Positions 2,998 to 33,066 of a DNA stretch of 33,066 nucleotides are shown here, piece after piece (the first letter of the stretch is position 1; each line of letters begins with the position of its first letter). The translations under genes and the position numbers were made by a program. Under the pieces are notes generated by a model that was not told the DNA's origin, searched no databases, and worked only from the letters and a program-made list of their open reading frames with translations. The stretch comes from a virus: positions 1 to 33,066 of IMG/VR virus record IMGVR_UViG_3300033141_004006; one strand, written 5' to 3'.

Positions 2998-4356
2998 ATG
3001 AATCAGCCAATCGAGGTTAAGATACATCTAAATAAGTTTGTACCGAGGGATTATCAGCGTCCCATCTTCAAGGCGTTCTTTGAGGATAGGTTTCGTCGCA
3101 TGGTAATTGTCATGTGTCGACGTGCTGGTAAAGATCTATGTACGTGGAATATCGTCATACGTGAGGCGATAACGCGGCCGGGGGTCTATTATCTTGTGTA
3201 TCCTACCTACTCACAGGGTAAGAAGATCCTCTGGGCGTCTGTCACTATCCAAGGTGAGCGTTTTCTTGACTATATACCTAAGCAACTGATAGAGGCTACA
3301 AACTCTCAGGACATGAAAGTTATCTTGACCAATGGTTCGATCATACAAATTATTGGTTCCGACAATCCAGACAGGATCGTTGGTACTAACCCGCAGGGTG
3401 TTGTCTTTTCGGAGTACGCCCTACAGAATCCACGGATTTATGCCCTCATGTCTCCTATTCTTGCTGCAAACAAGGGATGGGCTATCTTCCAGTCGACTCC
3501 TAGAGGTCGCAATCACTTTTGGGATCTATATCAGTTGGCGCTCAACTCTCCTGATTGGTGGACGTGTAAGTTAGGTCTCAACGAAACACGTCACATAGAT
3601 CCCAATGAGATAGACAGGGAGATAGCCGAGGGCTTGATGTCACCGGACTTGGTACAACAGGAGTATTACGTTTCCTTTGATGCAGGTGTCGAGGGTTCAT
3701 TCTACTGTAAGTACATAGATCGTATGAGGTTGAACAACCAGATAGGCACAGTACCGTGGGAAACTGGCTTTAAAGTGCACACGGCTTGGGACATAGGAGT
3801 TAGGGATTCTACTTCAATCATTTTCTTTCAGACCATAGGCCAAGTTGTCCGTATTATTGACTACTATGAGAAGAATAAGGAAGGGTTAGAGCATTACGTT
3901 AAGTTTGTATTATCTAAGCCCTACACTTATGGGAAGCATATAGCTCCTCATGACATAAAGGTTAAAGAGTTTGGTTCTGGAATGACTAGGATAGAAAAAG
4001 CTAAGAACTTAGGGATTAATTTCACGGTAGCTCCTGACCTTTCGATAATGGATGGTATAGAGTCGGTACGTTCGGCTTTAAGTAAAATATGGATTGACGA
4101 AAGTCAGTGTGCCAAACTGGTTAGGGCGCTTGAGAACTATCGTCAGGAGTACGACGTTAAGCGGCAGGTTTATAAAGATAATCCACTTCATGACAAGTAT
4201 AGTCACGCGGCAGATTGCATGAGATATTTGTGTATAACTTTGCCTAGGACGAGAGATGGTTTATCTTCTGAAGAGCTGGATAGGATGAGGCACGAGGCGA
4301 TGTATGGTAGTGATTCGAAGCTGCCAGAGTTTTTTAGGTCGGGTAATAAATTCTAG
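2998..4356 (+). CDS. terL: terminase large subunit
   Basis: A 452-residue ATPase/nuclease that pumps DNA into the prohead and cuts the concatemer. Walker A is CRRAGKD (40-46), Walker B is VVFSEYA with E139, and the coupling motif is STPRG (166-170). The C-terminal RNase H-like nuclease begins with WDIGVRD (D265, D270) and closes with HDKYSHAADCMRY (D399, D406 region), giving the usual acidic metal site. The start is ATG 2998 with GGGAG just upstream. The reading frame is open back to an ATG at 2890, but those 36 residues overlap the AT-hook gene, are basic low-quality sequence and are not terminase-like. The length is typical of the family. Confidence 0.95.
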   Translation: MNQPIEVKIHLNKFVPRDYQRPIFKAFFEDRFRRMVIVMCRRAGKDLCTWNIVIREAITRPGVYYLVYPTYSQGKKILWASVTIQGERFLDYIPKQLIEATNSQDMKVILTNGSIIQIIGSDNPDRIVGTNPQGVVFSEYALQNPRIYALMSPILAANKGWAIFQSTPRGRNHFWDLYQLALNSPDWWTCKLGLNETRHIDPNEIDREIAEGLMSPDLVQQEYYVSFDAGVEGSFYCKYIDRMRLNNQIGTVPWETGFKVHTAWDIGVRDSTSIIFFQTIGQVVRIIDYYEKNKEGLEHYVKFVLSKPYTYGKHIAPHDIKVKEFGSGMTRIEKAKNLGINFTVAPDLSIMDGIESVRSALSKIWIDESQCAKLVRALENYRQEYDVKRQVYKDNPLHDKYSHAADCMRYLCITLPRTRDGLSSEELDRMRHEAMYGSDSKLPEFFRSGNKF

Positions 4357-21431: not shown

Positions 21432-21911
21432 TTATTTCAAAGTGTCTATTTCTTTTTCGTATCTAATTGCCTCATTTAGCCTTTTTAGTAGGTATTTTGT
21501 TATTGTTTGGTTGTGTTTTGAGGCTGCCTTCCTGATGTTTTCTACTAGAATTGTTGGCAGGTCAACAGAAAGCCTCTTTCTTCCAGGTACGGCACTTTTT
21601 CTGTTTTTATGAGCTTGCTTGCCGTTGGAAAGGTAAAGGTGTTTAGGATTGGTACATGATACGTTATTGCATGAGTGAAGCACGTACGTATTTTGTGGAA
21701 CCTTTCCATGTTCAGCCATCCACGCAGCCCTTCGTGGGCTAAGTATGTTTCCAGCAACATTAATCCTATGTTTCAGTATGTTTTTGTTTTTAACGGTTCC
21801 CTTCCATCCATAGCACTTTGTTCCATCATCATTTTCTGGAACTATTCTAAGTCTATTTAGTGTTTTGAGAATCGCTTCCTTATATGTTTTTGTTATGTTC
21901 GCTGTTTTCAC
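21432..21911 (-). CDS. HNH homing-type endonuclease with C-terminal RHH-like domain
   Basis: A 159-residue nuclease. LSPRRAAWMAEHGKVPQNT, then VLHSCNNVSCTNPKHLYL, is the HNH_3-type core, with H79, N88 and H91 as expected catalytic or metal residues and paired cysteines. The C-terminal segment (RKRLSVDLPTILVENIRK, then TITKYLLKRLNEAI) looks like a ribbon-helix-helix DNA-binding unit. Such genes are usually selfish, cutting alleles that lack them. The GTG start overlaps the TAG of gene H by one base. It separates gene H from the rest of the secreted-protein operon and lies between two copies of the same promoter. Confidence 0.8.
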   Translation of the reverse strand: MKTANITKTYKEAILKTLNRLRIVPENDDGTKCYGWKGTVKNKNILKHRINVAGNILSPRRAAWMAEHGKVPQNTYVLHSCNNVSCTNPKHLYLSNGKQAHKNRKSAVPGRKRLSVDLPTILVENIRKAASKHNQTITKYLLKRLNEAIRYEKEIDTLK

Positions 21912-30693: not shown

Positions 30694-30711
30694 TAAATAA
30701 AAGGAGATGTG

Positions 30712-32502
30712 ATGGCAAGAACAAAAAGAGTTACAGGTATGCATCCTTTGTCGTACATGGGTGTTGAGGCTACTACGCCTCCTCAGTTGATAGAGAGAGA
30801 TATCGATCCTACTTCAGAATTTAATCAATTCAATATTGGAACTATTTGGGTAAATACCCTTACAGAAGATGTATGGATGCTTACCGATCTTACCGGTGGC
30901 GTAGCGAGTTGGACTCTTATGAGCCATGAAACTCTTGTAATCAATGGTGATACTGGGACTGCTACTGAAGATAACGGTGAAGTAAACATCATAGGAAGTG
31001 GCGTCTTAAATACGGCTGGTGCAACGGATACCCTTACGCTAGGGATGACAGCAGCTACTGATGGGCAGTTGATCATAGCAGGTACAGGCATAGTTCCTGC
31101 GTGGGGAACGGTAACATCGGGTGATGGTACGATTACCATAACGGCTGGCCCTAATTCTTTGGACATAACACGTACTGGCGGCGGTGGAGCAACAACCTTT
31201 CACACTGATGCTGGAAATGCGGTTACTGCAGGTGCGGCTATTACGATAGCTGGTGGTACTAACTTAAACACTGCTGGAGCTGTAAATACCGTAACTGTCA
31301 ACCTGGATAATGATGTAACGATAAGCGGTAAGATGACATCTGCTGCTTTAGAGTGTACTAGTTTGCAGTCTACTGATTTAACGGCTGGCTTTTTGGAGTC
31401 TGATGGAGCGGGTAATGTAACTAACTCTGAGGGTACGGATGGTCAGTTGATCATAGCTGCAACAGGTGCCGCAGCAGCATGGGCTAACTTAACGTCTGCA
31501 GCTGGAACTATGCAGATAACAGAGGGTGCTAACACGATTAATCTGGAATCTATAGCTGGTCTTGCATCTCCGTATGCGCTTATTTGGACAGATGGGGGAC
31601 CAGGTGGAACTGCAATTAGTGGCATTGGCGATGATGGAACAACTTTAGTCGTAACGCATGGTTCAACTGTTTTTGCATCTACTACTCTTCTCGACTCAAG
31701 TTGGACGAACGAGGGTGTGGCTGGTAGTGCTTTGGCTGATATACATGTAAGAGATAATGACGAGACGGCAGCAGTTATGGCTACGCAAGATGGTTCTAAT
31801 TACACGGTATATCATGCCACTACTCCTACTGCTGCTTATACGAAGTACATTATTAATGCCACCAGTACTGGTGATACGTTTACCTCTATTAACCATGATG
31901 GCTTTTATTGGATGATTACTGGAACTAGTATTAACGGAGGTACCAACGGTATACATTACGATGCTAATCCTGCTTCTGGTGCATGGACTTTCAATAGTGT
32001 TGGCTTAACGTCTCAGGCACTTAATGACAGTGCATATGGTGGTGGAAGGTGGGTTGTTGTAGGAGACAATGGGAAAATAGCTTACAACGACACAGATCCT
32101 ATTGGTGCATGGACTGATATTCCGGATACCAACAGTGGATTTGACGAGACAAGCAGTGCTGCAATTCATATTACGTCAATTACATATGCGACAGCTTTAG
32201 GGTTATTTGTAGCAGTCTCTAATGAGGCAAGGATTGCAACATCTCCAGACGGAATAAACTGGACTCAGCGTGATTCTGAAGGGAAAATTACTGGCACATC
32301 CTTCACAGATATTCACTGGGATTCTACTAACGGAATTTTAAGTGCGATGTCCAGTACAGATGTAGTTATGTCTTATAATGGAATTAAATGGTTTCGTGAC
32401 CCGTCAGTATCAGCATCTAATTGCAAAATTATGGGAGATTTAAACGGAAACGGAATTATGTTCACTTCAACGGATGCTGACAAATATTTTGTAGTTAGAT
32501 AA
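30712..32502 (+). CDS. tail fibre 3 with C-terminal propeller-like domain
   Basis: A 596-residue fibre. ATG 30712 follows AAAGGAGATGTG; the GTG one codon earlier is less likely. Residues 42-70 (IGTIWVNTLTEDVWMLTDLT) match the anchor-like segment of fibre 1. Shared modules follow at about 78-120 and 163-208, and TDGQLIIAATGAAAAWANL (242-260) almost repeats fibre 1. From about 287 to the end come seven W/Y-G repeats (INWTQRDSEG, GAWTFNSVG, RWVVVGDNGKIAY) resembling the free-standing protein at 29761. It looks like a fibre with a propeller receptor-binding head. Confidence 0.75.
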   Translation: MARTKRVTGMHPLSYMGVEATTPPQLIERDIDPTSEFNQFNIGTIWVNTLTEDVWMLTDLTGGVASWTLMSHETLVINGDTGTATEDNGEVNIIGSGVLNTAGATDTLTLGMTAATDGQLIIAGTGIVPAWGTVTSGDGTITITAGPNSLDITRTGGGGATTFHTDAGNAVTAGAAITIAGGTNLNTAGAVNTVTVNLDNDVTISGKMTSAALECTSLQSTDLTAGFLESDGAGNVTNSEGTDGQLIIAATGAAAAWANLTSAAGTMQITEGANTINLESIAGLASPYALIWTDGGPGGTAISGIGDDGTTLVVTHGSTVFASTTLLDSSWTNEGVAGSALADIHVRDNDETAAVMATQDGSNYTVYHATTPTAAYTKYIINATSTGDTFTSINHDGFYWMITGTSINGGTNGIHYDANPASGAWTFNSVGLTSQALNDSAYGGGRWVVVGDNGKIAYNDTDPIGAWTDIPDTNSGFDETSSAAIHITSITYATALGLFVAVSNEARIATSPDGINWTQRDSEGKITGTSFTDIHWDSTNGILSAMSSTDVVMSYNGIKWFRDPSVSASNCKIMGDLNGNGIMFTSTDADKYFVVR

Positions 32503-32528
32503 AAAAAGATACTTCTTCATATCTCCAC

Positions 32529-32568
32529 GAGGCGCTCTGGGTGCGCGATTTCACATTTGGAGCGCCTC
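32529..32568 (+). terminator. hairpin after fibre 3
   Basis: GAGGCGCTC (32529-32537) pairs perfectly with GAGCGCCTC (32560-32568) around a 22-base loop, 26 bases after the fibre stop. The sequence CATATTATACT follows. The loop and 3' arm overlap the promoter of the downstream ncRNA candidate. Confidence 0.5.
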
Positions 32569-32578
32569 ATATTATACT
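32550..32578 (+). promoter_or_regulatory. sigma70-like promoter of the ncRNA candidate
   Basis: TTCACA (32550-32555), 17-base spacer, TATACT (32573-32578). Each hexamer departs from consensus at one position (-35) or at one or two (-10). Transcription would begin near 32585, two bases before the first stem of the predicted RNA. Confidence 0.65.
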
Positions 32579-32584
32579 AGGTAA

Positions 32585-32742
32585 ATGGCTTACGGCTATA
32601 TGCGGTAAGTCTGGGCCACTATCAACTGGCCTATTGTGCTCCGCCGTTGCAAGACGGACTTGGAAGGACAAGTTTCTAATAATCAGAAGCAGTTGATATC
32701 TCCACCGCTCTTGGTTGGTCTCAACAGCCAGGGCGGTTTTCT
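32585..32742 (+). ncRNA. candidate structured small RNA, about 158 nt
   Basis: No coding frame of note. Predicted stems: GGCTTAC 32587-32593 with GTAAGTC 32605-32611; TGGGCCA 32612-32618 with TGGCCTA 32627-32633; CCGT 32644-32647 with ACGG 32654-32657; ACTTG 32658-32662 with CAAGT 32669-32673; TTCT 32674-32677 with AGAA 32685-32688; then the terminator stem. The loop and 3' edge of stem 2 (TATCAACTG 32620-32628) are fully complementary to CAGTTGATA (32690-32698), so a pseudoknot or a structural switch is possible. It is bounded by its own promoter and terminator and faces a convergent gene, so it is not a leader. It matches no RNA family I know. Confidence 0.6.
32705..32742 (+). terminator. 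intrinsic terminator of the ncRNA candidate
   Basis: CCGCTC (32705-32710) pairs with GGGCGG (32731-32736), with further interrupted pairing inside (TTGGTTG with CAA..CCA) and a GTCT loop, followed by TTTTCT. This is the only hairpin in the window with a convincing T-run directly after the stem. Confidence 0.7.
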
Positions 32743-32753
32743 AAAGGAGAATA

Positions 32754-33066
32754 TTATAGTTTACTCTTCCCGTCTCTTGAGTTCACGAGTTGTTGTACTT
32801 GACGTTTAACGTCTCTGTATTTTGATTTAGGCATGTCGGCTAAGGTTTGTATTTTAAGAGTCTCTAGAATCTTTTCGGCTATATCAGCGTAGTCTCCTAG
32901 GACATATCTAATCTCGTTCTCTTGATCTTGTGAGATAGTATCAAATGACTCTTCTTTTGCCTTGTAGCGAACGTTTAGTCCGGTACCCTTGTTTTGTGAT
33001 CTTCTTACATCTTCCATATCTCTCTCACCATCGTCGTCGTCTAGGTCGTCAGTGATGGTGATGTTG
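32754..33066 (-). CDS. C-terminal part of a gene entering from beyond the window
   Basis: An ATG exists at 33017 (87 residues), but the frame stays open to the window edge through an acidic stretch (DDLDDDDGERD) and that ATG has only a weak SD, so the true start is probably outside. The visible tail, ISQDQENEIRYVLGDYADIA then LADMPKSKYRDVKRQVQQL, recalls the small helical C-terminal domain found on some phage recombination proteins (RecT/ERF-associated); this is a weak resemblance. It is convergent with the ncRNA candidate. Confidence 0.5.
   Translation of the reverse strand, partial: NITITDDLDDDDGERDMEDVRRSQNKGTGLNVRYKAKEESFDTISQDQENEIRYVLGDYADIAEKILETLKIQTLADMPKSKYRDVKRQVQQLVNSRDGKSKL

Follow-up and report, generated by a model that had tools for sequence, protein, structure and literature searches.

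We describe a structured RNA gene in a 33,066-base IMG/VR virus record (IMGVR_UViG_3300033141_004006), a linear fragment which is referred to, at its full length, as the window. The RNA is encoded between the last tail-fibre-like gene (fibre 3) and a convergent gene and is almost certainly the omegaRNA (reRNA) scaffold of an IS200/IS605-type TnpB nuclease. TnpB is the transposon ancestor of CRISPR-Cas12. An initial annotation of the window had proposed a free-standing non-coding RNA gene at this position, which is supported by covariation in 20 sequences, pseudoknot included. Its statement that the RNA resembles no family holds for Rfam, where no match was found, but relatives were detected at the 3' ends of tnpB genes. 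The packaging or host-mimicking RNA that had also been considered gives way to a TnpB omegaRNA scaffold without tnpB.

Homologues of the RNA at the 3' ends of tnpB genes

The covariance search of related phages suggested in the initial annotation was carried out with a model built from the window RNA alone (R1) and run over approximately 140 related records. It matched only two sequences, both in phages and at other genomic positions. The first (L232 in record G084; 56 bits, E 3e-10) follows a tail gene and is convergent to another gene, while the second (L235 in record G108; 48 bits, E 8e-9) is flanked by structural genes on the opposite strand. Rfam covariance models, including those of transfer-messenger RNA (tmRNA), phage packaging RNA and riboswitches, gave no match in the window at the gathering score, and ARAGORN detected neither a tRNA nor a tmRNA in it.

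Since relatives of the terminase large subunit (TerL) of the window phage occur in a metagenome-assembled genome (MAG) of the Simkaniaceae, which is a clue to the host group, 234 genomes of the Chlamydiota, the phylum to which this MAG belongs, were searched with a second model of the three phage sequences (R2). Its top match (L237, 64 bits) overlaps the 3' end of a gene for a protein of 391 amino acids. This protein carries Pfam domain PF07282 (Cas12f1-like TNB, E 4e-20), its closest solved relatives are TnpB and Cas12f, and a terminase-like open reading frame is located beyond the tnpB gene on the same contig. TnpB relatives are present in 17 of the 234 chlamydial genomes, in which R2 also matched the 3' end of four further tnpB genes. 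In one of the 234 genomes (G326), R2 detected three copies truncated at contig ends, which is common for repeated elements. These copies are identical up to ...GGTAGTTGAC and wholly divergent directly after GTAGTTGAC (TTGAC). This point of divergence defines both the right end of the element and the boundary between scaffold and guide. By homology, the window scaffold ends in TTGAT and its guide is predicted to start at position 32,698. A third model of nine sequences (R3) found the RNA at the 3' end of another eleven tnpB genes absent from model building; among the phage relatives, it matched no additional spacer. At all tnpB loci (16/16), the RNA is encoded on the tnpB strand and ends between -54 and +41 nt from the stop codon. 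One element copy in G326 (L238, contig C7) is located near a gene with the product LPVGNPATPKLVDKGFF, which we take to resemble the chlamydial major outer membrane protein.

The window RNA has the architecture of an omegaRNA scaffold, with four stems and a pseudoknot between the loop of stem 1 and the bases just before the guide. As no tnpB is encoded alongside it in the window, in G084 or in G108, we class it as a tnpB-less derivative and not as a canonical omegaRNA locus. Guide RNAs of TldR are defined by an adjacent gene for a nuclease-dead TnpB-like protein, and no TnpB-like protein is encoded in the record. With regard to the left and right ends of IS200/IS605 elements, whose subterminal hairpins are recognised by TnpA, the right-end hairpin is present as stem 4 and two copies of ATATCTCCAC flank the insert, while no left end was recognised beside the window RNA.

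Fold, promoter and covariation

The RNA interval is non-coding and the next gene is convergent (stop at 32,754), as had been stated. Its predicted minimum free energy is -61.2 kcal/mol with the terminator (32,585-32,742; z -4.4) and -40.5 kcal/mol without it (32,584-32,698; z -3.4). None of the shuffled sequences reached such low values (0/200 and 0/300, respectively), and the second value indicates that more than the terminator alone contributes to the fold. In place of the five or six stems predicted initially, we find a slightly different layout of an extra 5' hairpin (P1), stem 1, whose loop takes part in the pseudoknot, stems 2/3, stem 4 and the terminator (Table 1). The intrinsic terminator hairpin, whose U tract is short, is present at the stated position, and so is the sigma70-like promoter TTCACA-17-TATACT, which agrees with the consensus at 10 of 12 positions. 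An equally good site at that distance is found at only 0.2% of the positions on the same strand of the window; taken together, promoter-like sites show no enrichment in the RNA region (2 found versus 6.8 expected). Weaker promoter sites precede the RNAs L232 and L235.

The perfect complementarity reported between TATCAACTG (32,620-32,628) and CAGTTGATA (32,690-32,698) over nine nucleotides was confirmed. The pseudoknot formed by these strands is genuine and covaries in 20 sequences, but the homologues narrow its conserved part to 6 bp (32,621-32,626 with 32,692-32,697), compared to the seven or nine that had been proposed.

Among the three phage RNAs, 13 of 36 pairs are changed on both sides and 96% of the cells pair, a value that no shuffle attained (0/500), and sliding the pairing partners abolishes the signal. 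Double changes affect 22 of 39 pairs in a nine-sequence alignment and 26 of 31 pairs in an alignment of 20 sequences (A6), where 90% of the cells pair and again none of 500 shuffles scored as high. As A6 was fitted to a model of the same structure, these pair counts lean toward it; the pseudoknot, which was part of no model, is 99% paired across the 20 sequences, with an A-U/C-G exchange that splits them ten to ten. The window scaffold ends with U where C is usual, and the loop base that pairs with it is A where G is usual, a compensating change within the pseudoknot.

In a phylogenetic tree, the RNAs of the window, L232 and L235 form one clade (97.2% in the Shimodaira-Hasegawa-like approximate likelihood ratio test, 98% bootstrap; 0.965 in FastTree). 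This tree was inferred from about 100 columns and serves as a guide only, as an unsampled tnpB-linked member could fall inside the orphan clade. If the three phage RNAs were orphaned in a single event, their double changes postdate tnpB loss and speak for selection on the scaffold. The compensatory changes within the orphan clade point to continued selection of this kind.

An unrelated phage RNA, such as a packaging RNA, an element of a 3' untranslated region or a small regulatory RNA that merely resembles an omegaRNA, is hardly credible as an explanation. The missing Rfam match and the position between a tail gene and a terminator would suit such an RNA, but successive independent models matched at tnpB 3' ends, a coding remnant is shared (see below) and the pseudoknot covaries.

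Absence of tnpB from the record and coding remnant

The TnpB encoded at L237, which as a query finds chlamydial TnpBs at 27-36% identity, revealed no TnpB in the window (G000), in G084, in G108 or in approximately 130 related phage records. The only tnpB gene on a phage-like contig of this phage family (G203, contig C21) is adjacent to its own RNA. Traces of the TnpB C-terminal frame were found in all three orphan RNAs by six-frame translation. The window contains VWATINWPIVLRRC after a stop codon, which matches WATVNWPIVVRRF in L232 and WASVNKPIVIRRLQ in L235; L232 reads FWATVNWPIVVRRF followed by a stop codon and L235 reads EPWASVNKPIVIRRLQ, compared to GLPVNQPIV in the L237 TnpB. The reading frame is broken in the window RNA. 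The best explanation is that the phage kept the omegaRNA after tnpB was lost or left behind.

Proposed action in trans

We consider it reasonably likely that the RNA is a stand-alone omegaRNA that acts with a TnpB supplied in trans, as a decoy or as a guide. The RNA would be transcribed from its own predicted promoter, would end at the terminator and would bind a TnpB encoded either on the host chromosome or on a co-resident element. Once bound, it might either occupy TnpB as a decoy or lend it the guide that starts at 32,698. Some observations weigh against this reading. The guide (32,698-32,714) overlaps the 5' arm of the terminator, and the absence of the RNA from the closest relatives is compatible with a recent relic. 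Furthermore, the record is probably several kb short, as close relatives reach 40 kb, and tnpB may be located outside of it.

The first two of these points could also speak for a decaying relic without current function, in which deletion of tnpB has left only the right end of an IS200/IS605 element behind in the phage. The broken reading frame fits this view as well, as does the finding that no more than three of the roughly 140 related records contain the RNA. We regard a relic as rather unlikely, as it should break pairs, yet 13 of 36 are doubly compensated within one clade of orphan RNAs; moreover, the window pseudoknot was kept through a matched pair of changes and a good promoter is located just upstream.

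That the cognate TnpB is encoded in the missing part of the phage genome, apart from the RNA, would be in line with a linear fragment. This seems improbable, because G084 (35.9 kb) has the RNA without TnpB, no related phage record of up to 42 kb has a TnpB, and the sole tnpB on a phage-like contig of the family adjoins its RNA.

Within the proposed action in trans, the RNA may steer TnpB to a competing phage or a host gene, or may cut unoccupied alleles and thereby lead to homing of the RNA gene. The intact scaffold end and guide position are consistent with such retargeting. Moreover, on plasmids, an IS605-family TnpB directed by flanking sequence behaves as a gene drive (PMC11870625), and TnpB-like repressors encoded by phages are retargeted to genes of the host (PMC13418256). 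Nevertheless, the guide has no second match at 0-2 mismatches in 1.5 Mb of phage loci, and its matches in the 234 chlamydial genomes are chance-like, in coding frames that read ISTAL-type motifs and share no upstream motif. In addition, the empty sites of the relatives match only about the first six guide bases. Retargeting is rather unlikely in our view. We lean slightly, and without strong confidence, toward the decoy, because the scaffold is conserved, the guides are mere local flanking sequence and the window guide is partly inside the terminator stem; the missing matches in phage loci and the chance-like chlamydial ones add to this.

Features and genomic setting

Table 1 Features of the RNA gene and its surroundings in the window. 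Positions refer to the 33,066-base record.
Feature	Position	Strand	Basis or remark
Fibre 3, last tail-fibre-like gene upstream of the RNA	30709..32502	+	Stop 32500-32502; open reading frame list
CTTCTTCATATCTCC motif after the last fibre gene	32510..32527	+	Just 5' of the relatives' lone terminator hairpin; relatives' spacers
Hairpin A (GAGGCGCTC...GAGCGCCTC)	32529..32568	+	Occupies the place of the relatives' native terminator hairpin; sequence, comparison with L132
Predicted sigma70-like promoter, TTCACA (32550-32555)-17-TATACT (32573-32578)	32550..32578	+	8 nt 5' of the P1 hairpin
P1, extra 5' hairpin GGCUUAC...GUAAGUC	32587..32611	+	Loop GCUAUAUG common to the three phage RNAs; compensatory changes in 5/9 pairs, three sequences
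Coding remnant (stop)VWATINWPIVLRRC	32609..32650	+	Six-frame translations
Stem 1, UGGGCCA/UGGCCUA	32612..32633	+	Loop with 5' pseudoknot strand AUCAAC (32621-32626); alignments
Stems 2/3, UUGU...ACAA with inner helix	32634..32671	+	Alignments
Stem 4, hairpin GUUUCU...AGAAGC	32672..32690	+	Counterpart of the transposon right-end hairpin; double changes in 4/6 pairs, 98% paired
3' pseudoknot strand GUUGAU, scaffold end	32692..32697	+	TTGAC in most close homologues; pseudoknot counts, G326 copies
Predicted guide AUCUCCACCGCUCUUGG	32698..32714	+	Runs into the 5' arm of the terminator; homology with G326 copies
Intrinsic terminator	32704..32743	+	Hairpin (~32704-32737) and short U tract (TTTTCT); sequence, folding
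Convergent gene, C-terminal part	32754..33065	-	Stop at 32754, runs off the contig; open reading frame list

The window contains structural genes for a portal (phrog_156), a major head protein (phrog_1357) and the tail, and TerL relatives of its phage occur on more than 240 viral contigs. A homing-endonuclease-like HNH endonuclease (PF13392) is encoded on the minus strand at 21,432-21,911.

Relatives that share the spacer were retrieved via the convergent gene. Fibre 3 is syntenic in L131, L132, L134, L135, L137 and L143, where the spacer consists of the fibre stop codon, a CTTCTTCATATCTCCTTTT-like motif, a single terminator hairpin and often AAAGGAGA, followed by the convergent gene. The structured RNA is absent from this spacer in these nearest relatives, which have the terminator only. 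In the window, the two copies of ATATCTCCAC start at 32,519 and 32,696, each is followed by a hairpin, and the RNA is located between them. Together with the RNA-free spacer of the relatives, this indicates that the RNA was added to a conserved spacer. The CTTCTTCATATCTCCTTTT motif (32,505-32,527 in the window) is conserved at the same place in the relatives, and its opposite strand, AAGGAGATATGAAGAAG, resembles a ribosome-binding site with a start codon.

Comparison with known systems

The omegaRNA of the ISDra2 TnpB has stems 1-4 and a pseudoknot in which the loop of stem 1 pairs with the final bases of the scaffold, directly followed by a 16-nt guide (PMC10097598), and its gene overlaps the tnpB 3' end (PMC10097598, PMC8612924). 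All of these structural parts recur in the window RNA, whose chlamydial homologues end in TTGAC or TTTAC. In contrast to ISDra2, the window RNA lacks an adjacent tnpB, its frame is broken, it carries the extra P1 hairpin and its own predicted promoter, and its guide enters the terminator. The TldR guide RNAs of prophages are likewise TnpB-family guide RNAs domesticated in phages, and a frameshifted tldR locus has been proposed to supply its guide RNA in trans (PMC13418256). However, TldR loci combine a nuclease-dead TnpB with a cargo gene, neither of which was seen with the window RNA, and no target of the window RNA was found.

Altae-Tran and colleagues reportedly described stand-alone omegaRNAs of IscB elements in 2021. 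These would resemble the window RNA as omegaRNA genes without a nuclease gene beside them, but they belong to IscB/HNH and to a bacterial chromosome, whereas the window RNA is of the TnpB type and encoded by a phage. RNA anti-CRISPRs (Racr) are phage-encoded solitary CRISPR repeats and also mimic a guide scaffold without a nuclease. A decoy as considered here would work alike, by analogy, with TnpB and not Cas as its target. Finally, the palindrome-associated transposable elements (PATE) and miniature inverted-repeat transposable elements (MITE) derived from IS200/IS605 are tnpB-less remnants with transposon ends. The window RNA differs from these, as no left end was found beside it and its scaffold was kept by compensatory change.

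Other spacer RNAs and rejected candidates

Several other searches yielded no relatives. A pattern search with CAGTTGATATCTCCACC hit 11 viral contigs, which were judged to be coincidences in coding sequence, and GGCCACTATCAACTGGCC alone gave a single match (L117) with no resemblance outside the stem. The covariance model found no RNA at another pattern match, L234. BLAST searches revealed nothing significant, whether the window RNA or L232 was compared with phage records or the core of the window RNA with plasmids, and short TnpB C-terminal peptides gave nothing useful against plasmids. AGCAGTG, which follows the terminators of distant relatives, was rejected as part of a common spacer RNA and considered a separate short feature. 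A conserved (A)AGCAGTG or AGCAGTT was observed 3' of the tail-end terminator hairpin in L163, L167, L181, L185, L197, L211, L223, L225 and others.

A different structured RNA occupies the same spacer between fibre gene and terminator in L177 (IMGVR 3300017991_005227; 3,360-3,600, minus strand). It matches the Rfam family HPnc0580 with 44 bits, shares a 36-nt match of 95% with haloarchaeal plasmid intergenic DNA and has an IS605-like end, GGGGAGTTGTCAA. Possibly, it is a second, unrelated orphan omegaRNA. The spacer RNA of L199 (3,400-3,520, minus strand) ends in the hairpin GAATCGCTGGCTTTTAAGCCAGCTGAGGTTCAA, which resembles an IS200/IS605 right end and may represent one. L189 (3,501-3,716, minus strand) has a 210-nt spacer with two long hairpin RNAs that share GGGCTAAT and GCGAAGC and have no Rfam match.

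Host range and implications

A chlamydial host of the window phage is plausible from the sequence comparisons. Chlamydial genomes hold this omegaRNA subfamily, in a scan that covered Chlamydiota only, and TerL relatives occur in two chlamydial assemblies, the Simkaniaceae MAG (L230, L231) and a chlamydial bin (L237/L242). These may point to tailed phages of Chlamydiota, or the contigs may have been mis-binned. A literature search of limited coverage, which is not proof of absence, returned no description of tnpB-less omegaRNAs kept in phages.

Taken together, we tentatively put forward, as a possibility that we would hold loosely, a phage lineage that plausibly infects Chlamydiota and carries a domesticated orphan TnpB guide RNA, which may act in trans on the TnpB of the host or of other elements, either as a disarming decoy or as a redirecting guide. 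If this is true, the retention of a guide RNA alone, its structure maintained by compensatory mutations, would imply selection for acting on a TnpB of other origin. Phages and transposon nucleases would then be in conflict at a new level, in parallel to RNA anti-CRISPRs or TldR, with a chlamydial TnpB and the phage RNA as a testable RNA-protein pair.
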